The notes under the pieces are model-generated. The model was not told the DNA's origin and made no database searches. It was given only the letters and a program-made list of their open reading frames with translations. Of a stretch of DNA of 64,000 nt, positions 4,308 to 28,930 are shown one piece after another (position 1 is the first letter of the stretch; every line of letters begins with the position of its first letter). The stretch comes from Poriferisphaera corsica (GTDB lineage: Bacteria; Planctomycetota; Phycisphaerae; Phycisphaerales; Phycisphaeraceae). The stretch lies in the NCBI RefSeq assembly GCF_007747445.1, contig NZ_CP036425.1, forward strand, positions 62,001 through 126,000, read 5' to 3'. The translations under genes were made by a program, and so were the position numbers.

Positions 4308-6095
4308 TTACTGAGTGGGGATGAGTTTTTGTAGGGTTGTGGCGATGTTCGGGCCGAAGAGGTCGGTGTCTTTCGCAATGATTTGGCCTGTTGGGGAGAT
4401 GAGGTAGATGCATGCAAAATCGGATGCGCCGAGTGTTTGGGTTGCAGCATCGTCGGCGGCGTTGGGGAGTAGAACGACGGGCCAATCGGTTTTGTTTTCG
4501 TAGGTTTTTGGATCGTAAGGGTCGAAGTCGGGTGAATCTTTGAATAGGAATGAGAAGAATTTGACGTTGGGATTGGATTTGAATTGTTGGTAGGCGGTGT
4601 TGACGTCGGCGATTTGAGAGAAGGCGAAGCCGTTGAAAGCAGGGGAGAAGTCAAGGAGGACGTACTTGCCGCGGTAGTCGTTGAGGTTGAATGATTGGTT
4701 ATCGTTTAGATATTTGGCTGTAATTTGTGGGGCGGCATTGCCAGTGTCTAACGATGCGTTAGGCGCGCTGAGGGGAATAGTGCCAAGGTTGAGGACGAGT
4801 GGCGGGTTTTCTGTGGGGATATTGATGGTTTTGCGGAGAGTTTTGTTGTCAGAGTTATCGAGGACGTTTTCAAGTTTGTTGACAAAGGAGATATTGGCTG
4901 AGAGTGAGAGTTCAGCTGGGATGATAGATTGGAAGGTGAAAGAGCCATCGGGAAAGAGGGTTGATGAGTAATTCTTGAGAGGTTGTTTGGAGGAGAGCTC
5001 AATCGTTGCGGAGTAGAACTTGGGAAGTGGTGTGTGGTCGTAGTTGATGATTTTGCCGGTGATGATGGTATTGTCGAAGTCAAACTTAAGGACAGGGAAT
5101 TTGTCCGACTGGACTTTGATGAGGTTGTTTTGGATGACAGTATCAGGACGGTATGGGTCGTCTTGGATGATGTTTGCGTTGATGAATTGGAAGGGCATGT
5201 AATCGAAGAGGAACGAACCATCGGTCTTGGTGCGGGTTTTGAACGAGAGAAGGATATTAGTGGGTTTGAAAGTGTCTTCTATGGCGCCGGGGGCGTAGAG
5301 TGGGCCGTTGATTTTGATGAGCTGGCCGGCGATGGGTTTGTCTTTGAGTTTGATTGAGCCGGTGAGAGGTTGCCATTCACCGAGCGTAATGCTGTTGGGT
5401 TGATCGGTATCGAGATCTTTTTGTTCGAGTAGTTGGTAGCCTTGTGGCGAGAGGATGAGGAGGCGGAACTTTTCGTTGTGAGGTGGGAGCGTGAAGGAGC
5501 CGTCGAGGTTGGAGTTGTAGATGAGGAGTGGCTTTTTGTTTGTGTGAGAAGCTTCGATATCGGCAGAGGGGTTGAATTGTTCGAAGATTGGGCCGGAGAT
5601 TGTGACGCGAGTATCGTCGATGACAGGGATGAGTTGTGCGTTGTAGACAGGGTTGCCAGACGGGGAGAGGATCGTGCCGGTGATGTTGGCGGCAGGTTTG
5701 AGTTTGATCGACCAGGTTGAGTTGAGGGTATCAAGTTCCCATTCGTGAGAGTACTGGGGGAGATAGCCGGGTGCGGTGATGTAGAAGGCGTAATGAGCGA
5801 GTGGCTCAGTGGTACGGATCTTGAATGTGTTTTCAGTGATACGGACGTTGAATGGGGCGAAGGATTTGAGGGGGTACCAAGTGGTGTCGAGTTTGGAGGG
5901 ATCACGGTAGCCAATGGTGATGTCGAAGTTATAGATTGGGGAGCCGGTATCGGCATCGGTGACAGTTGCGGCGATTGCAGTTGTTTGTTTTTTGGTGGGC
6001 GCTTTGAATGCGGCGGAGAGGTCGAGCTGGGCTGCGGCGGGTGCGCAGAGTAGCGTGAGTGTGAGAAGGAATGAAAGGGTGTGGCGGATGGTCAT
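4308..6095 (-). CDS. Exported protein with carboxypeptidase-regulatory-like repeats and a Cys-less thioredoxin fold
   Basis: The protein has 595 residues. A signal peptide (MTIRHTLSFLL..., cleavage near APAAA-Q) precedes several beta-rich modules of the carboxypeptidase regulatory-like type (for example VTDADTGSPIYNFDITI and ITGTILSPSGNPVYNAQ). The last ~140 residues form a TlpA/AhpC-TSA-like thioredoxin fold: after GKYVLLDF, where relatives have WCGPC, this protein reads FNGFA. Both redox cysteines are therefore absent, and a disulfide exchange role is unlikely. Probably it is a periplasmic or surface scaffold or binding protein (inference). It is transcribed away from the MarR operon, with a terminator just downstream. 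Confidence 0.65.
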   Translation of the reverse strand: MTIRHTLSFLLTLTLLCAPAAAQLDLSAAFKAPTKKQTTAIAATVTDADTGSPIYNFDITIGYRDPSKLDTTWYPLKSFAPFNVRITENTFKIRTTEPLAHYAFYITAPGYLPQYSHEWELDTLNSTWSIKLKPAANITGTILSPSGNPVYNAQLIPVIDDTRVTISGPIFEQFNPSADIEASHTNKKPLLIYNSNLDGSFTLPPHNEKFRLLILSPQGYQLLEQKDLDTDQPNSITLGEWQPLTGSIKLKDKPIAGQLIKINGPLYAPGAIEDTFKPTNILLSFKTRTKTDGSFLFDYMPFQFINANIIQDDPYRPDTVIQNNLIKVQSDKFPVLKFDFDNTIITGKIINYDHTPLPKFYSATIELSSKQPLKNYSSTLFPDGSFTFQSIIPAELSLSANISFVNKLENVLDNSDNKTLRKTINIPTENPPLVLNLGTIPLSAPNASLDTGNAAPQITAKYLNDNQSFNLNDYRGKYVLLDFSPAFNGFAFSQIADVNTAYQQFKSNPNVKFFSFLFKDSPDFDPYDPKTYENKTDWPVVLLPNAADDAATQTLGASDFACIYLISPTGQIIAKDTDLFGPNIATTLQKLIPTQ

Positions 6096-6344
6096 GCTGG
6101 ATCTCCGGATGATTCGTTGTTGTGGGTTGCGGGTGGCGTGGTTGCTGGTATCTGTAAGTTGTTGATATGCAGGTAGATGCTGTGGCTGTCTATTTGTTTG
6201 GTCATAAGCAGGTCCGTGAATCGGCCTGGTTGGTTATCTGAGCCGTCCATCATAAAAGAGGAGGGCGGTTGATCGCAAGATTGGTACGTGGATTTGGGGG
6301 TAAGGGTTCGGTTTCTGATTATGTGAGGAAGGTTTTAAGGGGTG

Positions 6345-6372
6345 TTGATTTAGTTTTTCGAATAGTTAGAAT
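6345..6372 (+). promoter_or_regulatory. Putative sigma70-type promoter of the marR-MATE operon
   Basis: A -35-like TTGATT (6345-6350) and a -10-like TAGAAT (6367-6372) are separated by 16 nt. The -10 lies inside the inverted repeat at 6363-6381, as expected for an autorepressed promoter. Confidence 0.5.
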
Positions 6373-6381
6373 ATCTAACTA
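6363..6381. promoter_or_regulatory. Candidate MarR operator
   Basis: An inverted repeat with perfect 8-bp arms, TAGTTAGA (6363-6370) and TCTAACTA (6374-6381), is separated by 3 bp. Size and AT-rich symmetry are typical of MarR-family operators, and it overlaps the -10 element ahead of a MarR gene. Confidence 0.65.
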
Positions 6382-6515
6382 AAATAGTCTCTGGCAGTGC
6401 ATATCGGTGTTGGGACCGAAGGCGTGTTGGATAAGAAAGATTGTGATGCGACAGGCGCATTTGGGTGGATTGGGTGGCAGTAAAATGAATCTATCTTTTT
6501 AATGAGGAAGATGTG

Positions 6516-6977
6516 ATGGAGCAGCGGCTTAAAGAGATCATTGACGTGAGTGAGGAACTGGGTGATTGCTTGGTTTTCAATGCGATTAGTCGTGTTGATC
6601 GAGCGGGGAAGGACGCATTGTCGGGGTTAACGGGACGGCAGATTCATGTGGTGGTGGGTTTGTCGAAGATCGAGCCATGCAGTTTGAAAGCTGCGGCAAA
6701 GCGGATGGGTGTAAGCGATGCGAGTGCGAGTGTGATGGTGGACACATTAGTGGGGAAGGGGATGCTCAGGCGGGTGAGGGATGAGCATGATCGACGAAAG
6801 GTGTTGATTAGCCTGACGGATGAGGTGAGGCAGAGTATGGAGGAGATTGATGAGGAGATTTGGGCGACGTATGTGAGATTTACAAAGAAGTTAGATGATG
6901 ATGTGCTGGACAGGTGGCATGCGGTGATGGGGGAATTAAAGGAGGTTCTCGATGAGTGCCGAGACGAGTTTGAATGA
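6516..6977 (+). CDS. MarR-family transcriptional regulator
   Basis: A 153-residue winged-helix regulator. The core LTGRQIHVVVGLSKIEPCS followed by LKAAAKRMGVSDASASVMVDTLVGKGMLRR is the MarR helix-turn-helix, and RDEHDRRKVLISLTDE is the wing. The ATG at 6516 was chosen over the GTG at 6513 because AGGA at 6505-6508 then sits 7 nt upstream. The gene overlaps the following MATE exporter by 26 bp, so the two are surely cotranscribed. The usual model for such pairs is that the regulator represses the operon until a small toxic ligand releases it from the inverted repeat at 6363-6381. The ligand cannot be predicted from sequence. Confidence 0.85.
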   Translation: MEQRLKEIIDVSEELGDCLVFNAISRVDRAGKDALSGLTGRQIHVVVGLSKIEPCSLKAAAKRMGVSDASASVMVDTLVGKGMLRRVRDEHDRRKVLISLTDEVRQSMEEIDEEIWATYVRFTKKLDDDVLDRWHAVMGELKEVLDECRDEFE

Positions 6978-8352
6978 GCAAGCCGAAATGGCAGTGGGGA
7001 AGATGGCACATTTAGGTGAGAAGCCGGTGCTGGGTTTGTTGATGGGTTTCTTTGCGCCGGCGATGGTGGGGATGATGACGCACGCGCTTTATAACTTGGT
7101 GGACAAGATTTATGTGGGACAGGGTGTAGGCGCGATAGGTTTGGGAGCATTGACGGTGGTGTTTCCGGTCATGATGGTGGGGTTTGGTGTGTCGTTGTTG
7201 TATGGGGCGGGGGGTGCTGCGCTGATTAGTTTACGGATGGGCGAGGGGAAGGTGAGGGAAGCGGAGAAGTATTTGAGTGGTGCGATTGGGATGTCGTTGT
7301 TGATGGGGGTGGTGTTGGTGGGTGTGGTGATGTGGTGGCAGGAGGATGTGTTGCGATTGTTCGGGGCGAACGATGAGTTGATGGGCGATGCGAAGGCATA
7401 TTTATTTTGGATATTGGTTGGATTTCCGATGTTGTCGGCAGGTTTTGTGATGAATTTCGCGATAAGAGCGGAGGGGCGCCCGACGGTTTCGGTGGTGATT
7501 ATGATGATTTCGACCGTGGTGAACATCGTTCTGGATCCGATTTTGATTTTTGGGTTGGAGATGGGTGTTGCGGGTGCGGCGCTGGCGACGTGTTTATCAC
7601 AGACGGTAACGTTGATGTTGGGGGTGGTTTATTATGCGGGTGGTTGGAGTGTGTTGAAGGTGAAGATGAGGTTGTTGTTGCCACGTTGGGGGGTATTGCG
7701 GCCGATGTTGCTGTTAGGTTTGCCGGCCTGTTTGGCTGATGCGCTTTTTGCGGTGCAGCAGCTGTTTATGAATCAGAAGTTGGTTGAGCATGGTGGGACG
7801 ATGGGTGTTGCGGCGATGGGTGTTATTTTTGGGGTGATGACAGTGGCGGTGATGCCGATGTTTGCGATGGGGGATGGGCTGCAGCCGGTGGTTGGGTTTA
7901 ACTACGGGGCGAAGTTGTACGGGCGGGTGAGGGAAGCATTGCTTTGGACGAGTGGATTGGTGTGGTTATTGGGTGGTGTGATGATTTTGCCGGTGGTGGT
8001 TTGGCCAGAATTGTTTGTGTGGATGTTTACGGGTGGTGATGAAGCTTTGATGGTGGAATCAGTGCGGGGATTGAGGGTGTTTAGCTTAGGGGTACCGTTG
8101 TTTGGGATGTGTTTTGTGATGACGCGATACTACCAGGCGATCGGTCGTGGGGGGATTGCGATGGTGTTGTCGACATTGAAGCCGTTGGTGATGTTTGTGC
8201 CGCCGCTGTATGTGATGGCGTGGTTGTGGGGGATGAAGGGCGTGTGGGCTAGTGAACCTGTTAGCGGTGTATTGAGTATGGTTGTGGTGGGTTGGGTGAT
8301 GCTGTTGGAGCTGCGATCTGGTCGCGGTGAAGCGGCTGCGGTGGAGGCGTGA
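6952..8352 (+). CDS. MATE-family multidrug/Na+ (H+) antiporter
   Basis: A 466-residue integral membrane protein with about twelve hydrophobic segments arranged as two similar halves. The opening FAPAMVGMMTHALYNLVDKIYVGQGVGAIGLGALTVVFP is the signature of the MATE/DinF group, with a matching second-half start near GLPACLADALFAVQQLFMNQKLV. It would export cationic drugs or metabolites using an ion gradient. Translation begins inside the end of the MarR gene (26-bp overlap), which ties export to that regulator. No clear terminator follows; a T-run at 8402-8410 has no obvious stem. Confidence 0.85.
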   Translation: MSAETSLNEQAEMAVGKMAHLGEKPVLGLLMGFFAPAMVGMMTHALYNLVDKIYVGQGVGAIGLGALTVVFPVMMVGFGVSLLYGAGGAALISLRMGEGKVREAEKYLSGAIGMSLLMGVVLVGVVMWWQEDVLRLFGANDELMGDAKAYLFWILVGFPMLSAGFVMNFAIRAEGRPTVSVVIMMISTVVNIVLDPILIFGLEMGVAGAALATCLSQTVTLMLGVVYYAGGWSVLKVKMRLLLPRWGVLRPMLLLGLPACLADALFAVQQLFMNQKLVEHGGTMGVAAMGVIFGVMTVAVMPMFAMGDGLQPVVGFNYGAKLYGRVREALLWTSGLVWLLGGVMILPVVVWPELFVWMFTGGDEALMVESVRGLRVFSLGVPLFGMCFVMTRYYQAIGRGGIAMVLSTLKPLVMFVPPLYVMAWLWGMKGVWASEPVSGVLSMVVVGWVMLLELRSGRGEAAAVEA

Positions 8353-8703
8353 GTGTCAGGTGAGGGCGCAGTGTGAGATGGCGGGGAGGGGTACAGTTTG
8401 AGTTTTTTTTGATTGAAGGGGAGCAATTAAATCAGGATGATCTGGTACTGATTTGTAAGTTATTTCTATAAATGATGTTATTGTGGGAAATGGTCTGTGT
8501 TTTCAAGGGGTATGTGGGATGATTATTTTTGTTTATGTCACAAAACGGGGGTATGATGAGGGGACGGGTTGATTGTGAGATGGTGTATGAGGGGCGGATT
8601 TTGGGGTGTGCGGTTATGTTGCATTGGTATTGGTGGGGAGGTTGACGCGTTGAGATGTAAGCAGCGTGTCATGAGATCATGGAATTATGGAAGGTCGTGG
8701 AAG
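8353..8703. other. Gene-free stretch before the aminotransferase
   Basis: About 350 bases. It includes a T-rich run (8402-8410) and a weak hairpin with 7-bp arms around 8428-8453. An in-frame TTG upstream at 8569 would lengthen the aminotransferase by 45 residues that do not resemble the family, so I treat 8569-8703 as untranslated. Confidence 0.45.
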
Positions 8704-10020
8704 ATGAGCGAGCAGCCGTCAAAGAAGTTTGGGTTTTCGAGTCGAGGTCGTCGTAGTGTGGATCAGCCGATCAGTTATCTGATTGCGAAGGCGGTTGAGA
8801 ATCCTGATTTGATTTCATTGGCTGCGGGGCTGGTGGATTATGAGACACTTCCGGGTGAGGAAAGTTTGGAAATCCTGAAGGATATTTTGGGCGATAAGAA
8901 GCGTAGCGAAGCGGCGTTGCAGTATGGTATGACTGAGGGATCGGGCGAGCTTCGTGATGAGCTATATAAGCATTTCTGCGAGTTGGAGGGGATGAGCGAA
9001 GCTGAGTTTACGGGCAGTGCGAAGGATATTGTTGTGAGCACAGGCTCGCAGCAGTTGTTGCATATGTTGGCGGACTTGGTTTTGGATGAAGGGGATGTGG
9101 TGATCAGTAGTTGGCCGAGCTATTTTGTGTTTACCGGTGTGCTGTCGGCAATGGGTTCGACGGTACGCAGTGTGGACATTGATGAAGGTGGGATGAAGCC
9201 AGAAGAGTTGGACAAGATGCTGGCGAGCTATGAAGCAACGGGGCAGTTGGATCGCGTGAAGATGGTGTACCTTGTGAGTTACCATCAAAATCCAACGGGT
9301 ATCACGTTGGCTGAAGAGCGGAAGCCTGAGATTTTGGAGATCGTTAAGAAGTACTCGAAGAATCATAAGATTTTGATTATTGAGGATGCTGCTTATCGTG
9401 AGTTGACGTATGGGGGGAAGGCGCCGGCGTCGATGAAGGTTTGGGATAAGGACAATGAGTATGTGGCATTGCTGCAGACGTTCAGCAAGCCGTTTGCGCC
9501 GGGGTACAAGACGGGCTATGGTTTGATACCAACGGACTTGATTGACGGTTTGATATTAAACAAGGGTGGGCGTGACTTTGGTTCGAGCAATTTGGCTCAG
9601 CACGTTTTGGCGGAGGCGATGAGGCGGGGTGTGTTTAAGAAGCATGTGGAGAAGCTTTGTGCGAAGTATGCTGAGAAGCGTGACGCGATGTTAGAAGCGC
9701 TTGAGAAGTACGTTGGGCCGCTTGCGCCAAATGAGATTGAATGGACAAATCCGAGTGGCGGTTTGTATGTTTGGCTGACGCTTCCAGAGGGTATTGATAC
9801 GGGTAAGGATGGAAAGCTATTTGCGAAGAAATTGGAGAAGGGTGTGATTGGTGTGCCGGGTGTTTACTGTTATCCGGATGACCCGGCGAGAGAGATTCCG
9901 GTGAATAAGATTCGCTTGAGTTTCGGTACGCCGACGAAGGAACAGGTTGTTGAAGGTATCAAACGCTTAGGCGAGGCGATCGCTCACGTTCTTGAAGAAG
10001 AAGGTGTGGCGAAGAAATAA
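8704..10020 (+). CDS. PLP-dependent aminotransferase, class I/II (2-aminoadipate/MocR-like)
   Basis: A 438-residue fold-type I PLP enzyme. The motif TFSKPFAPGYKTGYG carries the Schiff-base lysine (K262), followed by the phosphate-contacting region; LVSYHQNPTGITL and IIEDAAYRELTYGG contain the cofactor Asn and Asp of this superfamily, and the C-terminus has KIRLSF, where Arg binds the substrate carboxylate. It is closest in layout to 2-aminoadipate or aromatic aminotransferases without the GntR domain of MocR proteins. ATG 8704 was chosen because homology begins at once and AAGG lies at 8691-8694. The amino donor is unresolved. A terminator follows, and it is probably monocistronic. Confidence 0.8.
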   Translation: MSEQPSKKFGFSSRGRRSVDQPISYLIAKAVENPDLISLAAGLVDYETLPGEESLEILKDILGDKKRSEAALQYGMTEGSGELRDELYKHFCELEGMSEAEFTGSAKDIVVSTGSQQLLHMLADLVLDEGDVVISSWPSYFVFTGVLSAMGSTVRSVDIDEGGMKPEELDKMLASYEATGQLDRVKMVYLVSYHQNPTGITLAEERKPEILEIVKKYSKNHKILIIEDAAYRELTYGGKAPASMKVWDKDNEYVALLQTFSKPFAPGYKTGYGLIPTDLIDGLILNKGGRDFGSSNLAQHVLAEAMRRGVFKKHVEKLCAKYAEKRDAMLEALEKYVGPLAPNEIEWTNPSGGLYVWLTLPEGIDTGKDGKLFAKKLEKGVIGVPGVYCYPDDPAREIPVNKIRLSFGTPTKEQVVEGIKRLGEAIAHVLEEEGVAKK

Positions 10021-10046
10021 TTCCTTGTTATCCAGATGAAATAATG

Positions 10047-10075
10047 AACGCTGGCCGAGTGGCCGGCGTTTTTTT
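10047..10075 (+). terminator. Terminator after the aminotransferase
   Basis: A 10-bp stem (10047-10056 with 10061-10070, one G-T wobble), a GAGT loop and a run of seven T. Confidence 0.9.
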
Positions 10076-10114
10076 GTATGGGGTGATGCGTGTAGATGAG
10101 TTAGAATATCGGGC

Positions 10115-11533
10115 ATGATGGAATGGAAAGCATTATTGAATGGTGAACGGTTTTATGACGCGAGTCGAGGGGCAGGTGATGTACGTTCAGAATTGCAACG
10201 TGATTATGATCGGGCGCTATTTTCGAGTGCGGTAAGGCGATTGCAGCATAAAGCGCAGGTATTTCCGCTTGAGCCGAATGATAAGGTGAGGAATAGGTTG
10301 ACGCATTCGCATGAGGTGAGTTGTATTGCGCGGAGTTTGGCGGAGAGATGGGTTAGTGGATATGGGGCTAACCGAGGGTTAGACGAGGAGGTTCGATTGG
10401 GGGTGCCTGTGGTGTGTGCGACGGTGGGGTTGTTGCATGATTTGGGGAACCCGCCGTTTGGCCATGCTGGCGAGATGGCGATTGCGGAGTGGTTTGAAAG
10501 GCATGACGAAGAGGTATTTGGGGGTGTATTAGATGAGGATGATAAGGAAGCGATATGGGTGAGAGAAGATTTTTTGAAGTTTGAAGGTAATGCGCAGACG
10601 ATGCGGATCATCTTAAAATTGCAAAGTATTTTGGGGGATAGTGGCTTGAATTTGACGTATGGGACGTTGAGTGCATGTCGTAAGTATGTCGGGCGGTCGA
10701 TCGATGTCTGCAAGGATGATCAGGGGTATAAGAAGCCGGGCTTTTTTTGGTATGAGCGGGAGCGTGTTCGCAAAGTGGAAATACGGACGGATTGTGTTGG
10801 TGATGATGGGCGCGGGGTAAGGCATCCGTTGACGTACTTAGTCGAGGCTGCGGATGATATTGTCTATAGCACAGTTGATTTGGAAGACGCTTTAAGTAAA
10901 GGGGTTTTGAATTGGGAGATGTTAAAAAAAGAGCTGTTAAGGCGAGTGAAAGATGCGGGACAGAAAAATGTTTTAGCTGAGATTATTGAGCAGATTGATG
11001 AGCGTCTTGAAAAATATATTGTTGTGGATGTTGCCACGGAAAGAAATACGGTTGCAGGGCAATTATTGCGAACGATGTTGATTGGCCGATTTATCGAATC
11101 GATGGTTAGAGCGTTTGATGAACACTATGATGCGATTATGAAAGGTGAGTTTGGCGATGAGTTGGTTGCGGTTAGTGATGTGTGTGAGATCGTTAAAGCA
11201 TGTAAAGGGGTTGGGTTTGATCATATATATGTGATTGTGGCTAACTCAAAGTTAGAGGTCATGGGTCGAAAAGTGATTCATGATTTGATGGATCTTTTTT
11301 GGGATGCAGTAAAGGATTATGAAGGTCGTGATAGTCTAAAGGGGAGTGGGTATGGTGAAAAAGTTTGGCGTATTATGTCGGCTAATTATCGGGGGTTATT
11401 TGAGACGTGGTATGAACAAGCGGATAGTGAGCTGGAGCGTCAAATCTTGAAGCTGCATCTGGTAACAGATTATGTTTGTGGCATGACGGATCATTATGCA
11501 AGGGAGTTGCATCGCGAATTGCTTGGGTGGTAA
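10115..11533 (+). CDS. dgt: dGTP triphosphohydrolase-like HD-domain protein
   Basis: A 472-residue HD-superfamily phosphohydrolase. The signatures are RRLQHKAQVF, NRLTHSHEVSCIARSL (metal His66) and VGLLHDLGNPPFGHAGE (HD pair H108-D109), followed by the late conserved YLVEAADDIVYSTVDLEDAL. This is the arrangement of dGTPase/dNTPase enzymes, which cleave dNTP to deoxynucleoside and triphosphate and thereby trim dNTP pools. The length suits the group between E. coli Dgt (505) and shorter dNTPases. Start is at ATG 10115 or 10118, just behind the aminotransferase terminator. The exact nucleotide preference is not readable from the sequence. Confidence 0.85.
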   Translation: MMEWKALLNGERFYDASRGAGDVRSELQRDYDRALFSSAVRRLQHKAQVFPLEPNDKVRNRLTHSHEVSCIARSLAERWVSGYGANRGLDEEVRLGVPVVCATVGLLHDLGNPPFGHAGEMAIAEWFERHDEEVFGGVLDEDDKEAIWVREDFLKFEGNAQTMRIILKLQSILGDSGLNLTYGTLSACRKYVGRSIDVCKDDQGYKKPGFFWYERERVRKVEIRTDCVGDDGRGVRHPLTYLVEAADDIVYSTVDLEDALSKGVLNWEMLKKELLRRVKDAGQKNVLAEIIEQIDERLEKYIVVDVATERNTVAGQLLRTMLIGRFIESMVRAFDEHYDAIMKGEFGDELVAVSDVCEIVKACKGVGFDHIYVIVANSKLEVMGRKVIHDLMDLFWDAVKDYEGRDSLKGSGYGEKVWRIMSANYRGLFETWYEQADSELERQILKLHLVTDYVCGMTDHYARELHRELLGW

Positions 11534-11892
11534 GACGTGAAGGTTGTGTAAGCAACATGTTATCAGTGGTGAGTAAGTGTATCACCTGATTCCTAGGATC
11601 AGGTTGCATTTGCGCGCATTAACATAGGACGGGTTAGATCATTTTTATTAATTTGGTTGTTGGTCATGAAATTTAGGTGTTGATACTGAGTAGGGGTACT
11701 GTTGAGGGTGTGGGTGGTCGTACATGTTTACCCAATAAAAGTAAAAAAAGTCTTGAAAATAAGGGTTATTGAACGATTTCTTGGCAAGGTAGGTGGAAAG
11801 TTCGTGTTGTGGCTCAAAGATCTATGAGACGCAGACAACAATCCGAGTGGATTTACGGTGTCTGTCGAGAAATCTTGTGAAAGGTGAATGTT
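11534..11892. other. Intergenic stretch between dgt and the DUF378 gene
   Basis: 359 bases. A hairpin at 11584-11604 has perfect 7-bp arms around a CCTAGG-containing loop but lacks a following T-run, so it is at best a weak terminator for dgt. Nothing else is recognisable. Confidence 0.4.
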
Positions 11893-12114
11893 ATGAAGTC
11901 GATTGATGTGATAGCAGCAATTCTGCTGGTGATCGGTGGTTTGAACTGGGCGTTGGTTGGTTTGTTCCAGTTTGATCTGGTTGCCGCAATCTTTGGTGGC
12001 GTGGACACGTTCCTCGCACGTCTGGTGTATATCGTTGTTGGTGCTGCTGCTGTATGGCAGATTGCACAATTCAAAGCGATCCAGATCCGCTGGAGCCAGA
12101 CAAGCATGAACTAA
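11893..12114 (+). CDS. DUF378 family small membrane protein
   Basis: A 73-residue protein with two transmembrane helices. The start MKSIDVIAAILLVIGGLNWALVGLF followed by DLVAAIFGG and LARLVYIVVGAAAVWQI is the complete DUF378 (YuzA-like) pattern. The function of the family is unknown. ATG 11893 is preferred to GTG 11884 because the ribosome-binding site AAGGTG (11881-11886) lies 7 nt before it. It is followed by its own terminator, then by two fasciclin genes in the same direction. Co-occurrence of DUF378 with fasciclin genes may be meaningful, but I infer this only from position. Confidence 0.85.
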   Translation: MKSIDVIAAILLVIGGLNWALVGLFQFDLVAAIFGGVDTFLARLVYIVVGAAAVWQIAQFKAIQIRWSQTSMN

Positions 12115-24191: not shown

Positions 24192-24635
24192 ATGAATTGG
24201 CAGGGAATGCGTCATATCTTACGCAGTATTAAAGGTGGTGGTCTGATCCTCGTAGTGTGCGGTAGCGTCACACTCGCCGGCTGCAGCATGCTTTCAACTC
24301 GTTCCGCAAAAGTCAGCAACGATAGCAAGGCATTTAGCCAAAGCCTCGTTGCCTGTACTCAAGCAATACAACGTGGCAATCTCGAGAAAGCTGAAATGCT
24401 TCTCTCTGAAGCCCGTCCATCAGCAAAGAGTTCCAAGCAGCGCATGAAAATTAGAAGCCTTCAAGCACTCATCGAAGGGGCAGAAGCGCTTATGAACGGC
24501 AACGGTGAGCTCGCAGAAACACACTTTTCACGTATCGAAGATCCATATCTTCGCCGTGAAGTTCGTGTAAAAGCACGACAGGTCGACCTCAAAGTTCCAA
24601 TCACGCCTCTCGCAGCATACGGAGGTGGCCGATGA
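24192..24635 (+). CDS. TPR-like lipoprotein, first gene of the ExbBD-TonB-like locus
   Basis: 147 residues. The signal sequence ends in the lipobox LAGC-S (near residue 31), so it should be an anchored lipoprotein. The mature part is helical with TPR-like pairs (AFSQSLVACTQAIQRGNLEKAEMLLSEARPSA and SLQALIEGAEALMNGNGELAETHFSRI). ATG 24192 has AAAGGAG at 24176-24182. The stop overlaps the next start by 4 nt (ATGA), so translation is coupled. The role is unknown; by position it belongs to the membrane-energised envelope locus that follows. Confidence 0.7.
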   Translation: MNWQGMRHILRSIKGGGLILVVCGSVTLAGCSMLSTRSAKVSNDSKAFSQSLVACTQAIQRGNLEKAEMLLSEARPSAKSSKQRMKIRSLQALIEGAEALMNGNGELAETHFSRIEDPYLRREVRVKARQVDLKVPITPLAAYGGGR

Positions 24636-25678
24636 GAAAAATTACTTTTAGTAAAATCTCTCTTTTGGCGGTCGTCGGTGTTCTCGGCAGCATGACGCTT
24701 ATAAGCGATATCAATGCAGCTGAAGTAATCGATATCCGTTCGAAAAAGAGTAAAAGTACACTAGATCTTGAAGGGTACGACTTCGGCCATGTTGTCGAAA
24801 AGCTCGCAACATCTATTGATCCATTAGAACGCGAAATGGAAACCAGCTTCACCACTTTTGTTGAGGCAGTCAATGATGCAGAACAGCTGCTTGCTGAAGG
24901 CAATACACGTAATGCACTAGAAAAATGTGAAGTTGCAGTCGAGAGTGTTCTCAAGGCACGTGAAAACGTTTTAAATCCCATGTGGGACGGCCAAACTTAT
25001 CTTACCGAACAGATCGGTTGGGTTCGTATGCGTCTTGCCCGAGCACTAGAAGCAGAAGGCAAAGCAAGTGATCTAAACCCAGATGCTCGGTCAGAGAAAC
25101 TTCTCGATAATATAGCCAAGCGAATTCCAGAGGAAAAGGATCCTGTTCGCAAGAAATGGCTTGTCGCACATTATCGCACCGTTCGTGATCTTGCCAAGAT
25201 CAAACGGATGACTGATCGTCTCTCTCCCGATCAGCGTAAACTCTGGGTGAACGTGCTCAGCGTTCTCGATGAAGCTTCGCTTGCTCATCAACAAGTCCTT
25301 ATGGGTACGGAAGTTCTTTTTGCTCAGTTCGAATCGACTGCAGTACGTTTAGATGAATATCTCACCTTGCTTGATACCGTTGATGGTGCCTCTGAGCTCC
25401 TTGATATGGTGCGTGGTATCGGTGGTTCATCAGGCGAAATCAGCGCATTCACGTCAAGTATGACTCAGCTTCAGGATCAACTTAGCGGCTTCAACACCGC
25501 TGTTGAAAATGCGCTGCAGGAAAGTATGTTCGAACTCGAATCGACCATCGATTCCATTCAGCCTAGCGATGACGGTATGTACTCCTCAAATGGTAACCGG
25601 ACCGGTTTTGGTAGCACTAACGAAGATGAAGAGCTTTCAGCTCGCATCATGAAGCTCCAGGAAACCGAAGGACGTTAA
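24632..25678 (+). CDS. Exported alpha-helical protein
   Basis: 348 residues. A signal peptide with cleavage near INAA-E leaves a mature protein that is almost wholly helical, with coiled-coil-like heptads around 60-110 and 245-310. No catalytic motif is visible. Repeated helices such as AEQLLAEGNTRNALEKCEVAVESVLKARENV suggest a TPR-like or scaffold function in the periplasm. The start is fused to the preceding lipoprotein gene by a 4-nt overlap. A strong terminator lies 20 nt after the stop, so the ExbB part of the locus may need its own promoter or read-through. Confidence 0.65.
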   Translation: MRKITFSKISLLAVVGVLGSMTLISDINAAEVIDIRSKKSKSTLDLEGYDFGHVVEKLATSIDPLEREMETSFTTFVEAVNDAEQLLAEGNTRNALEKCEVAVESVLKARENVLNPMWDGQTYLTEQIGWVRMRLARALEAEGKASDLNPDARSEKLLDNIAKRIPEEKDPVRKKWLVAHYRTVRDLAKIKRMTDRLSPDQRKLWVNVLSVLDEASLAHQQVLMGTEVLFAQFESTAVRLDEYLTLLDTVDGASELLDMVRGIGGSSGEISAFTSSMTQLQDQLSGFNTAVENALQESMFELESTIDSIQPSDDGMYSSNGNRTGFGSTNEDEELSARIMKLQETEGR

Positions 25679-25697
25679 AGGGAATAAGAGGGCGCAG

Positions 25698-25729
25698 GCC
25701 GGCCACCCCATGGGGATGGCTGGCTTTTT
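25698..25729 (+). terminator. Terminator inside the ExbBD-TonB-like locus
   Basis: GCCGGCCA pairs with TGGCTGGC (one wobble) and the hairpin is extended by CCCC/GGGG; it is followed by five T. It separates the first two genes from the rest. Confidence 0.8.
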
Positions 25730-25773
25730 CCTCTCTTCTACGACAAAAGCAATCCATCCTTAAGGACATTGTG

Positions 25774-26292
25774 ATGAATAATCTCAACTTACTAAAAATC
25801 TCCTCAGCCGGCTGGTTGGTTGCAATGTTAGTCATTACAGCAATGCTAGCATTAACGACAAATCTGCAAGCTGAACCTAAGAATGTCGCGAAAGAGCGAG
25901 CTACCTATTACAAGCTTATCAATGAGCGTCAAGTAATTCGTCAACGCCTCGCGCAACTTGATCGTCGAGCCGCCCAACTTATGCAGCAAGGCCAGGACCC
26001 CGTTGTCCTCCATGCTGAGCAGGTTGGCTTACAAGACAAGCTTGATTTAATCGAACTCCGTTTGGAAATCGTTGCCGCACGACTGGGCTTCGATGTTCCA
26101 CTCAACGACCCTGTACAGCCAGAAGCTGAAGTTGTTGAAGAAGATCCTATCAGAGCAAAAGCGAACCGCGCATTTGAACGTGGACGTGATCGCACCATGA
26201 TCCGTCTCCGTGAAGACGCGAAACGCCTGCTTTCTTCTATTAACTTTTCACGTTTCCTTGCAGAACCGGTTGTTGACAAAAACAACTATTGA
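25774..26292 (+). CDS. Exported coiled-coil protein
   Basis: 172 residues. An N-terminal hydrophobic signal or anchor (about 10-30, then LQAEP) precedes a charged helical region, NERQVIRQRLAQLDRRAAQLM then QVGLQDKLDLIELRLEIVAARLGF, with good heptad periodicity. The C-terminal third is basic. ATG 25774 has AAGGA 7 nt upstream; GTG 25771 is less likely. It sits just upstream of the ExbB-like gene. A 10-bp hairpin at 26302-26331 follows but lacks a T-run, so it may be a processing or attenuation site. The function is unknown. Confidence 0.65.
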   Translation: MNNLNLLKISSAGWLVAMLVITAMLALTTNLQAEPKNVAKERATYYKLINERQVIRQRLAQLDRRAAQLMQQGQDPVVLHAEQVGLQDKLDLIELRLEIVAARLGFDVPLNDPVQPEAEVVEEDPIRAKANRAFERGRDRTMIRLREDAKRLLSSINFSRFLAEPVVDKNNY

Positions 26293-26301
26293 GCCGGTGT
26301 T

Positions 26302-26331
26302 GCCACAGATTGTAGACATATAGTCTGTGGC
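26302..26331 (+). other. Hairpin between the coiled-coil and exbB-like genes
   Basis: A 10-bp stem (26302-26311 with 26322-26331, one wobble) and a 10-nt loop. It is followed by ATTCCTCTC rather than a T-tract, so it may be a processing site or weak attenuator. Confidence 0.45.
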
Positions 26332-26417
26332 ATTCCTCTCAATCCGCAACAACACACAAGCCCTCGAAAGGGTTTAGAGAACCTACGCACGCTTGCAGAG
26401 CCTTGAAAGGATAGCCA

Positions 26418-26831
26418 ATGATCCGTATCTGGGATTACTTTGAACTTGGTGGCTTCATGATGTGGCCATTGCTCGTGTGCTCCATTCTCTTAGGAGCAGT
26501 ACTGATCGAACGTGTCATCGTCGTAGGCCTTTGGGGTGTTGTTTTCAAACGCCCGCTCACTAAACGTGTTTGGTGGGGGCATGGCCACATTCTTCGATTC
26601 TTCGAGGAAGTTCCGCCCGGCCTCGGCCTTCTCGGCACTATTATCGGCATCGTTCAAAGCTTTCATCTTGCTGACGGACAAGTCGCAGGTAGTGAAGTTG
26701 GTGCCGGACTCGCCGTTGCATGCATGACTACAATCTTTGGCCTCTCCATCGCGATCGTCGCAACCGTAGTTCGATATATGCTCGATGCCGCAGCCAATCG
26801 CGCTATCCACTTCGGCCAAGTTAAAGCGTAA
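26418..26831 (+). CDS. Shortened MotA/TolQ/ExbB-type proton channel protein
   Basis: 137 residues. TM1 (about 13-35: FMMWPLLVCSILLGAVLIERVIVV) is followed by a short cytoplasmic linker, then the conserved MotA_ExbB core PGLGLLGTIIGIVQSF (TM2) and GAGLAVACMTTIFGLSIAIVATVVRYML (TM3). These helices pack around an ExbD/TolR dimer and conduct protons. Normal ExbB and TolQ have 200-240 residues with a large cytoplasmic loop; that loop is almost absent here. AAAGGA lies about 9 nt before the ATG. The ExbD-like gene follows after 35 nt. Identity as an ExbB/TolQ relative is firm; the physiological partner is unknown. Confidence 0.85.
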   Translation: MIRIWDYFELGGFMMWPLLVCSILLGAVLIERVIVVGLWGVVFKRPLTKRVWWGHGHILRFFEEVPPGLGLLGTIIGIVQSFHLADGQVAGSEVGAGLAVACMTTIFGLSIAIVATVVRYMLDAAANRAIHFGQVKA

Positions 26832-26866
26832 ATACGAATACATAAACACTCTCACGGTACCAAACC

Positions 26867-27283
26867 ATGCTTCAAAAAGGCTTCATCGACATGCTCTTTA
26901 TACTCCTCTGTGCCACGATTGTTTTGCTCAGCGAATCAGTCCGAATCGGTACAGTGGATGCAAAGCCCGCAAAAGTCGGTGGTGGCGCCGTGACCGATAT
27001 CTCAGTAAACCAAGTCAGGATCGTTATCGTCAGACCCGACGAACTGATCTTTGAAGAGCAACCGTATGGAAATATGACCGATATAGCGAAAGCTAATCAA
27101 TGGTTAGGTGATGAATGTGCCGTCCTCATTCCCTCAATAGAGAATGTTACACATCACCGCATGATGGATGTATGGTCCAGCTTTCAGGAAGCGGGCTATC
27201 AGGTTAAATTCGGCGCCAAAGCTGTCAACGATGAGCAATCTGTCCCCACTAGGACCGTTGCCTCGACTGGTAGTGAGCAGTGA
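26867..27283 (+). CDS. ExbD/TolR-like protein
   Basis: 138 residues. A single N-terminal transmembrane helix, FIDMLFILLCATIVLL, begins only eight residues from the start and carries the Asp (D9) that in ExbD/TolR sits in the membrane and is protonated. The rest is a small periplasmic domain, with ISVNQVRIVIVRPDELIF matching the first strand pair of ExbD and a late AGYQVKFGAKAV resembling its final strand. The cytoplasmic N-terminus is shorter than usual. No good ribosome-binding site is seen, so it may be translated by coupling to the ExbB-like gene. Confidence 0.8.
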   Translation: MLQKGFIDMLFILLCATIVLLSESVRIGTVDAKPAKVGGGAVTDISVNQVRIVIVRPDELIFEEQPYGNMTDIAKANQWLGDECAVLIPSIENVTHHRMMDVWSSFQEAGYQVKFGAKAVNDEQSVPTRTVASTGSEQ

Positions 27284-27296
27284 TTGGGGGTGACGC

Positions 27297-28163
27297 TTGT
27301 CCCGTACTGTGTTGATATTAGGATTTTTTGTTTCGTTTCTTTTGCATGCGATCTTGATCGAACTCCCCTTGTTCAATAAACAGGACCGTTCGATCGATAT
27401 GCAGCAACTCGCAGCAGTCGTTGAACTCGCAAAAGTGATGAAGGAAATTGAACAGATCGAAGAGCCTCCTCAAGAGCAGGCCCCAGATCCCGAACCGGAA
27501 CCGGAAATCAAGCCTGAACCCGAGCCTGAACCAGAACCTGTTCAGCCGGAGCCCGAACCCGAGCCAGAGCCGCTCCAGGAACCCGAACCGGAACCGGAGC
27601 CTGTTCAACCTCCACAGCCACAGCCTGAACCCGAACCGCTTAAGATGGACAAGATTTTTGAAACACAGAAAGCTGAAGCTCCCGAAACCCCCGGCGACTT
27701 CGCAACAGGTAGCCAGGAAACTAAGCATAACCCCGAGCTTCGTATCGATTGGGGCTCTGCTCAAACCGCTCTCAATATCATCAAAAGCGGCGGAATGCGC
27801 CTCGTTGTCTATTCAGGTGCAGCAAGTTCGATTCACTATGAATACGTTAATCGAAGCGGACAATGGCGACGACAACGCCTAGCCGTCAATCGCAGACTCC
27901 GTTTTTCTAATCGAATCCGTATCGTTCAGGATGTCCCCGCATTCAGCAAAATCATCCAAGGCGACGATTGGAAAGAAAAGGACCGTCTCGCAATTATGGT
28001 CCCCCGTGATATCGAACAAATGCTTCAATCCGCACAGCTCACGGCCGCATCCACTCAGGGACTCACCATGAGAGATATCCATAGTTTCGCTGGCAGATTC
28101 CAACTCGTAAACAGCAATCAATTAAATTTTGATGTGACAGCAATTCGTGTACGCATGCAGTAA
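27297..28163 (+). CDS. TonB-like protein with SxxxH motif and Pro-Glu spacer
   Basis: 288 residues. The N-terminal membrane helix ([17 protein letters not shown]) contains S13xxxH17, the motif through which TonB couples to ExbBD. Residues about 57-115 are almost purely Pro-Glu repeats, the rigid spacer expected to cross the periplasm. The C-terminal ~145 residues are folded but do not show a recognisable TonB C-terminal domain (no YP motif). The start is TTG 27297, with GGGGGT about 5 nt upstream and the membrane helix starting at once. It follows ExbB- and ExbD-like genes. It probably transmits proton-motive energy to a non-standard outer partner (inference). Confidence 0.75.
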
Positions 28164-28183
28164 GCGTGAGAAAGGCAAGGAAC

Positions 28184-28930
28184 ATGAGCGGCAATAAAGA
28201 CGACAAAAAAATCAACCAAACCCTGTTTGGCGTCAACCTGCTCCTAATCATTATGCTCGTCGTTGGTATGATCGTCTATTTTAATATTAGACAGCAACGT
28301 AAGTCCGAATTTGAACAATTCAGACCAACCGATCAATCCGTCGCTGAGCAAAAGCAGTCAGATACCCAAACTCCACAAGTCGTTTCGACCGATAAGCTTG
28401 GGAAAGAACTGCCCAGTAGAAAAGCGAATCGATCCGGCGAATCGAACGCCTCCGCTTCCGGCAGCGCAACAAATGCTGACGGGATTCATGCGGCAGCGAA
28501 AGATTCTAAGGAAGAAATCAAAATGACCATGGCCGAAGATATCAAAGATATCATGGACCAGGACAGCAATGATGATCAAAACGTCATTGATGAAATGTCC
28601 ATCGACTATGACAACGGCTCCGACCTTCTCTCCGGAACAGATCGAGCCCGCCTCATACTCCTTGAAACCAAGGACATGAAGCTCGTTGATCAGCTTGTCG
28701 GCCAAGATGAACAAGATAAGAAAAATAAATCAGCGTCAAGATCCAAAAAATCAGCGCTTGAGCAAGCCGCTGAAAACTCTTCCGGCCGACGTCCCAACTA
28801 CGGCAAGGTACGCAAGGGACTTATCGGCGTCGCCGAAGCGCTCGTTAGACTCAATTCCAGAATCGTTGAAGTCGAACCTCTAAAGGAAGACGACGAAGAA
28901 GCCGTCACCTCTTTAGAGTATGGACCATAA
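28184..28930 (+). CDS. Single-pass membrane protein closing the ExbBD-TonB-like locus
   Basis: 248 residues. A short cytoplasmic N-terminus (MSGNKDDKKINQTLFG) leads into one transmembrane helix (VNLLLIIMLVVGMIVYF), then a long periplasmic region that is polar and low in complexity, rich in Asp, Ser, Lys and Gln, with a weakly helical C-terminus. ATG 28184 has a purine-rich AAAGGCAAGGA upstream; an in-frame GTG at 28166 does not. It follows the TonB-like gene by 20 nt. No family is recognised; the orientation matches the TonB-like protein, and it may be an accessory strut or regulator (inference). Confidence 0.6.
   Translation: MSGNKDDKKINQTLFGVNLLLIIMLVVGMIVYFNIRQQRKSEFEQFRPTDQSVAEQKQSDTQTPQVVSTDKLGKELPSRKANRSGESNASASGSATNADGIHAAAKDSKEEIKMTMAEDIKDIMDQDSNDDQNVIDEMSIDYDNGSDLLSGTDRARLILLETKDMKLVDQLVGQDEQDKKNKSASRSKKSALEQAAENSSGRRPNYGKVRKGLIGVAEALVRLNSRIVEVEPLKEDDEEAVTSLEYGP

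Follow-up and report, generated by a model that had tools for sequence, protein, structure and literature searches.

A co-inherited seven-gene locus of Poriferisphaera corsica, with an ExbB-ExbD motor pair and a TonB-like protein, as a candidate envelope force transducer

RESULTS

Gene content of the locus

We analyzed a window of 64,000 nucleotides, bases 62001 to 126000 of the chromosome of the marine bacterium Poriferisphaera corsica KS4 (CP036425; a single contig of 4,291,168 bp, G000 among our genomes), for a locus that resembles an ExbB-ExbD-TonB operon. An earlier note on this DNA had listed seven co-directional genes, and all seven open reading frames (ORFs), here called g1 to g7, were present on the plus strand, spanning positions 24192 to 28930 of the window (Table 1). 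Genes g1 and g2 overlap by 4 bp; intergenic spacing was mostly 60 bp or less, with exceptions that include the g3-g4 interval in G004 and in G001, the sister strain ZRK32 (CP066225; 5,234,020 bp). Strain ZRK32 has been named Poriferisphaera heterotrophicis (PMC10945688), and the accessible parts of PMC7783415 and PMC10945688 describe KS4 and ZRK32, respectively, as being in culture. By hydropathy, the products of g1, g2, g3, g5, g6, and g7 each have a hydrophobic stretch at the N terminus. The g6 ORF starts with TTG, and its C-terminal domain is encoded at approximately 27723 to 28160; alternative GTG starts are possible for g3 (25771) and g7 (28166).

Table 1. Genes and intergenic features of the locus (window positions; aa, amino acids; TM, transmembrane; AF2, AlphaFold2)
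Feature	Positions	Strand	Evidence
g1, 147-aa lipoprotein with weak TPR likeness	24192-24635	+	Invariant Gly-Cys lipobox
g2, 348-aa exported protein, all helix; marker for the set	24632-25678	+	12 homologues, AF2 model
First hairpin, in the g2-g3 interval, with a T-run after it; resembles a terminator or attenuator	25685-25735	+	Fold z
g3, 172-aa exported helical protein, probably a coiled coil	25774-26292	+	11 homologues aligned
Second hairpin, in the g3-g4 interval, with a stem of 14 bp	26302-26332	+	Fold z
g4, minimal ExbB/TolQ, 137 aa	26418-26831	+	PF01618, invariant Thr
g5, 138-aa ExbD/TolR whose N-terminal tail is very short	26867-27283	+	PF02472, Asp8
g6, TonB-architecture protein, TM helix with SxxxH, Pro/Glu linker, C-terminal domain outside known families, 288 aa	27297-28163	+	
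g7, single-pass membrane protein, 248 aa, short C-terminal helix common to loci	28184-28930	+	

The g4 and g5 proteins carry the residues of a proton motor

The g4 protein matched PF01618 (MotA_ExbB) with an E value of 2.3e-13 and 50.5 bits, against a cut-off of 22.9, which bears out its description in the earlier note as a 137-residue ExbB/TolQ core. Such a length is not in itself out of the ordinary for an ExbB, the NCBIfam exbB2 model having 138 positions. Pore Thr residues in TM2 and TM3 have a functional role in ExbB. In g4, Thr74 and Thr105, which align with Thr148 and Thr181 of Escherichia coli ExbB, were invariant in 9/9 homologues. The window copy of g5 matched PF02472 (ExbD) at 8.5e-4, under the Pfam cut-off; the family was matched in 9/9 g5 homologues (best E value, 6.1e-6), and Asp8, which aligns with Asp25 of E. 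coli ExbD, was invariant in all nine, in line with the ExbD/TolR-like protein with a membrane Asp that had been proposed. With g4 and g5 profiles, hhalign found E. coli ExbB at 84% and ExbD at 82%, and searches of the PDB returned ExbB, TolQ, and PomA/MotA chains for g4 and ExbD (at 0.0096) for g5. By its domain match over the cut-off and its pore Thr residues, g4 can be assigned to the MotA/TolQ/ExbB proton channel family, and g5, by the domain in its homologues and its membrane Asp, to the ExbD/TolR family. Because these motor residues are conserved, both proteins are predicted to use protons.

The g6 protein has a TonB-like layout and a C-terminal domain outside the families compared

The SxxxH motif previously noticed in g6, which marks the motor-docking helix of the TonB system, was confirmed. 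The helix reads S13-x3-H17, with H17 invariant in 9/9 homologues and Ser at position 13 in 8/9, and is followed by a Pro/Glu linker of ~100 residues. The NCBIfam TonB model matched residues 9 to 146 (helix and linker) at 3.4e-8, with 33.7 bits against a cut-off of 315, and an hhalign comparison of the full-length g6 and TonB proteins reached 53%, over 16 columns that lie outside the C-terminal domain. The last ~146 residues aligned across 10 homologues, with invariant positions that include W10, G11, and the PAF of a “VPAF” motif. No Pfam family matched g6 of the window, and the TonB, TolA, and vWA families were matched by none of nine full g6 proteins or 10 domains at E values of up to 5. When the C-terminal domain was compared by hhalign, the probabilities were 0.3% for E. 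coli TonB, 0.2% for TolA, 0.6% for another TonB-like protein of the same genome, and 1.1% for a vWA protein of the same genome (locus L091). A PDB search with the domain profile gave one chance match, and an AF2 model of the domain, built from two sequences, had a pLDDT of 38.7 and was unusable. Since hhalign did find ExbB and ExbD with the motor profiles, the method reaches such distances for those families. The motor belongs to a known family, and what is new is the g6 domain and the four partner proteins.

Accessory proteins g1, g2, g3, and g7

The Gly-Cys of the g1 lipobox was invariant in 12/12 homologues, and the residue after the Cys was never Asp; under the +2 rule of E. coli, lipoproteins are sorted to the outer membrane by that position. 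The earlier view of g1 as a TPR-like lipoprotein therefore holds for the lipoprotein part, and its likeness to TPR proteins is weak (TPR_21 in 2/12 homologues and HemY_N in 5/12; best E value, 2.1e-4). All Pfam matches of g1, g2, and g7 fell under the curated cut-offs, and the window copy of g3 had none. Scans of the homologues of g1 (12 proteins), g2 (12 proteins), and g3 (11 proteins) gave only scattered weak matches, those of g3 being to eight families, each in a single member and at chance level. The 12 g2 homologues had a mean column identity of 51%, and an AF2 model of g2 was all helix (pLDDT, 63.6), with 0 matches among PDB folds at E values of ≤0.001. PDB sequence searches with profiles of g1, g2, g3, and g6 returned weak or low-complexity matches only; the g1 profile reached designed proteins at 3.7e-5 and BamD at 0.019. 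In G025, a second, shorter g2-like gene (profile E value, 6.8e-18) lies upstream of g1 (locus L052, positions 10960 to 11898).

The g7 protein is the most divergent and least certain member of the set. The single-pass topology suggested earlier applied to the window and to most loci, and it failed in G004, where the gene at this place starts like a signal peptide and has a weak TPR match. Homologues of g7 were scanned against Pfam for two further loci only. For the g7 profile, candidates were taken by their position in five loci; independent matches ranged from 5.9e-8 to 0.0093.

The seven genes are co-inherited, and one genus lacks the motor

The same gene order was found in nine loci of eight genomes, the window included. 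BLAST detected g1 to g7 in order in G001 and g1 to g6 in order in G004 and G025, and profile searches added G362, G347, G145 (where g7 was found by reading), and two loci of G269, where the entire cassette is present twice, in divergent form (L069 and L070). In a ninth genome, G016, the set is split between contigs, with g1-g2 at the end of one and g5-g6-g7 at the end of another. The neighbors are thus conserved together in related genomes, and g1 to g7 are a real, co-inherited set, of which g7 is the least certain part.

Among samples that overlap, g2 was present in 6/61 relatives, in 10/397 genomes of the class, and, at 1e-3, in 5/392 genomes of the phylum sample, where three matches were strong (all in the same family) and two were weak; strong matches occurred only in Phycisphaerae. 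A close g4 (E value of ≤1e-30) was found in 4/61 relatives, the other ExbB matches there being generic. Matches to g6 occurred in 19/397 class genomes. Eight were strong, and all of these lay inside the 10 genomes with g2; the remaining 11 were weak (2.6e-6 or worse) and limited to the helix and linker. The overlap of g2 and g6 had a hypergeometric p of 3e-15, a value to be read with the knowledge that profile rows came from g2 loci and that the genomes are related, so that the observations are not independent. On the best reading, the system is sporadic and restricted to Phycisphaerae, which is narrower than the general planctomycete system that had been envisaged.

Two genomes of one genus, G021 and G229 (the latter a single contig), carry g1-g2-g3-g7 without ExbB-ExbD-g6 between g3 and g7, and no g6 match was found elsewhere in either genome. 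An ExbB gene of G021 that lies 40 kb from g2 (L051) was considered as a copy from the cassette and rejected, being a generic ExbB. The idea of a seven-gene machine is therefore right in that the genes form a co-inherited set and too rigid in that one genus keeps four of them without the motor trio. Absence of the trio as a block from both genomes is what one might see if two units shared an operon, namely, a g1-g2-g3-g7 scaffold and an ExbB-ExbD-g6 passenger with a different task. We regard such an arrangement as highly improbable: the trio never occurred without g2 in the sample (strong g6 matches, 8/8 inside g2 genomes), it sits between g3 and g7 in nine loci, and accessory and motor trees agree on the well-supported groups (G000,G001) and (G145,G269a,G269b). 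Other branches of these trees are weak, and the trees are too weakly supported to separate loss of the motor from gain or ancestral absence.

Receptors and Tol-Pal components in the carrier genomes

We searched 17 genomes (9 motor bearing, 2 motor-less, and 6 without g2) for partners of known systems. The plug domain of TonB receptors was matched in 5/17 (G145, G021, G229, G019, and G031). It was thus present in both motor-less genomes and unmatched in 8/9 motor-bearing genomes, including G016 and that of P. corsica. TonB_C was matched in 4/17 genomes; among motor-bearing genomes the one match was weak (G025; E value of 7.4e-5 in a 1982-aa frame), and the other 8/9, P. corsica among them, had none. 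TolB_N was matched in 0/17 genomes, carriers and noncarriers alike. No Pal/OmpA-like domain was matched by Pfam in the seven proteins of the locus, the genomes themselves not having been searched for Pal. Since the P. corsica genome lacks matches to plug, TonB_C, and TolB_N, the known Ton uptake and Tol-Pal systems explain the locus poorly. By the tests run, and in agreement with the earlier note, the locus is not a known Tol-Pal or TonB cluster: the g6 domain shows no relation to TonB_C, TolA, or vWA. We accordingly rejected ordinary TonB uptake (no plug or TonB_C in the genome itself, no TonB relation of the g6 domain), Tol-Pal (TolA at 0.2% by hhalign, no TolB_N), and a vWA transducer (1.1% by hhalign with the L091 protein) as descriptions of the locus.

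A divergent Ton system, serving uptake through an outer membrane receptor too divergent for the plug model, would account for the ExbB-ExbD-TonB-like gene order, for the SxxxH helix, and for the reach of the NCBIfam TonB model into g6, far under its cut-off though that match is. Pfam also fails to match another TonB-like protein of P. corsica (L094), which makes the lack of a profile match less than decisive. We nevertheless find a divergent Ton system unlikely, given that plug and TonB_C each went unmatched in 8/9 motor-bearing genomes while plug was present in both motor-less ones, that no receptor gene was seen in the operon, and that four extra proteins are foreign to TonB-ExbB-ExbD.

The general lack of TolB_N also invites the view that the locus is a functional stand-in for Tol-Pal, stabilizing or constricting the outer membrane at sites of division or budding. 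An outer-membrane-type lipoprotein and helical periplasmic proteins would suit such a role, and the accessible text of PMC7783415 reports conspicuous outer membrane vesicles on P. corsica. However, the six genomes without g2 lack TolB_N too, so that the lack of Tol-Pal is not tied to carriage of the cassette, g2 is confined to a small minority of the class, and the seven proteins are without an OmpA-like Pal domain. A stand-in for Tol-Pal is, in our judgment, unlikely.

Other motor genes of P. corsica

The P. corsica genome has five MotA/ExbB genes. Besides g4, their settings include an ExbB with two ExbD genes (L090), an ExbB beside a DsbD-like gene (L092), and a flagellar MotAB locus (L093). 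An ExbB-ExbD-TPR-vWA operon (G000:C1, L091, positions 5636 to 11412; TPR protein of 877 aa and vWA protein of 600 aa) fits the vWA transducer class of PMC12204202. At L094 (positions 6398 to 7810), an ExbD gene adjoins the gene for the 314-aa TonB-like protein missed by Pfam; the end of this protein looks TonB-like by eye, and the genome is without a plug receptor match.

DISCUSSION

A candidate force transducer acting on an envelope assembly

A force-transducing role for the locus is likely on the sequence evidence. More specifically, we think it fairly probable that the locus encodes a trans-envelope force transducer, driven by the proton motive force, that acts on an outer membrane assembly of lipoprotein and helical proteins and stands in parallel to the vWA transducers already described. 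In such a machine, g4 and g5 would form a 5:2 motor, and g6 would dock on the side of the motor, cross the periplasm, and pull through its C-terminal domain on an assembly of g2 and g3, with g1 as its anchor in the outer membrane and g7 as its anchor in the inner one. One genus retains g1-g2-g3-g7 but no motor, and so these four proteins are probably a tether or scaffold able to work passively, which the motor would tension or reset in other lineages. The load would be an outer membrane task other than uptake through TonB receptors.

Several points weigh against this proposal. The g6 domain could share the fold of TonB at a distance that sequence comparison does not reach, and because Pfam also misses the TonB-like protein at L094, the lack of a Pfam match carries little weight. 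The outer membrane site of g1 is predicted from a rule established in E. coli. The profiles of g2 to g7 were built partly from loci found through g2, so that later matches are partly dependent, and the g7 matches in G004, G025, and G021 are there by construction. Finally, the sporadic occurrence of the cassette implies that it is dispensable for most Phycisphaerae.

Relation to described systems

We found no paper describing this cassette; the text of a Phycisphaerae genome paper (PMC11266412) does not mention TonB, ExbB, or TolQ, nor does the accessible text of PMC10945688 contain ExbB, ExbD, or TonB. Force transducers with a vWA domain and TolQ/TolR motors have been reported in Planctomycetes, their function being given as unknown in the accessible parts of PMC12204202 (Mol Biol Evol 2025). 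They share with the locus an ExbB/TolQ-ExbD/TolR motor, a protein with a TM helix, a linker, and a globular end that is neither TonB nor TolA, and a TPR protein nearby. They differ in that the g6 domain is not vWA and is small (~146 aa), in that partners like g2, g3, and g7 are absent there, and in that a vWA-type locus exists separately in P. corsica. The TonB-ExbB-ExbD system has in common with the locus its motor subunits, an SxxxH helix, and a Pro-rich linker, whereas the locus has no TonB_C match and four extra proteins, and receptors are absent from most of its carriers. Tol-Pal likewise unites a TolQ/TolR-like motor and an outer-membrane-type lipoprotein in one operon, but the locus is without a TolA or Pal domain and its genomes are without TolB_N.

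The closest published plan is that of Vibrio TonB2 with TtpB2 (DUF3450, leucine zipper), TtpC2, and TtpD2 (TPR), in which, according to the accessible text of PMC6957404, a TonB motor needs co-encoded exported proteins of the coiled-coil and TPR types. In contrast to Vibrio, the locus has no second ExbB of the TtpC type, and most carriers lack plug receptors. DUF3450 was not among the eight Pfam families matched by the 11 g3 proteins or among the 25 of 33 families listed for the 12 g2 proteins, and we rejected a TonB2 system of the DUF3450 type on those grounds.

The locus might represent a fourth class of proton-driven outer membrane force transducers beside TonB, TolA, and vWA, in which g1-g2-g3-g7 would be an envelope-spanning tether and ExbB-ExbD-g6 a separable motor with a new pulling domain that tensions it, serving bacteria where neither a Ton receptor nor TolB is found, with one genus keeping the tether without the motor. 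We put this forward tentatively, with more doubt than confidence. The idea of further classes is already in print, since PMC12204202, in its accessible parts, expects more such systems. Few machines are known to carry energy to the bacterial outer membrane, and the cassette, if the proposal is true, would add a further class and would show that different loads can be coupled to a standard proton motor. Because a variant lacking the motor exists in nature, powered and unpowered forms can readily be compared.

Flanking genes and intergenic hairpins

Among 452 flanking ORFs, four families recurred in at least three loci. Directly after g7 in G347, G145, and G269 there is a divergent sigma-factor-like gene (Sigma70_r4_2 at 5.7e-4, under the cut-off) with a gene for a small membrane protein (L067, 11541 to 12907; L068, 4380 to 5871; L069, 5428 to 6815). 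The sigma-like gene was found in 4/17 genomes, all motor bearing (G016, G145, G269, and G347), with none in P. corsica. In G269 and G016 the cassette has as neighbors a FlgO/CsgG-DUF4384-subtilase fusion, an LPP20 protein, and caspase-domain proteins with FGE-sulfatase or WD40 parts (regions L069, 11025 to 16727; L049, 1120 to 5482; L089, 240 to 2465); a subtilase alone lies near the cassette in G347, and a FlgT_N-like protein lies near that of G145. None of these recurring neighbors was found near the cassette of the window, and the full-length subtilase fusion had no match in the P. corsica genome at 1e-10. At most, such neighbors suggest an outer membrane setting in those lineages. The FlgO/CsgG, LPP20, and FlgT_N-like proteins are all of an outer-membrane-associated type and could accompany a motor like Agl-Glt or GldLM that drives surface movement or secretion. 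We consider this improbable, however, because the window contains none of these neighbors, no known Glt or type IX secretion family was matched, and the motility of P. corsica, reported in the accessible text of PMC7783415, may stem from its flagellar MotAB locus.

Two hairpins lie between genes of the operon. The first (fold z of −3.13; 1/200 shuffles as good) has a counterpart in ZRK32 with a z of −2.13 (6/200), and it is recognized by its folding, being absent from the list of a consensus terminator scan. That scan gave no excess over expectation: it counted 8 promoter-like sites where 6.0 were expected and 8 terminator-like sites where 5.8 were. The second hairpin folded more strongly (z of −4.87; 1/200 shuffles), and its ZRK32 counterpart had a z of −3.02 (2/200). 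Kept in both strains, the two hairpins could cause g1-g2, g3, and the motor genes to be expressed at different levels.

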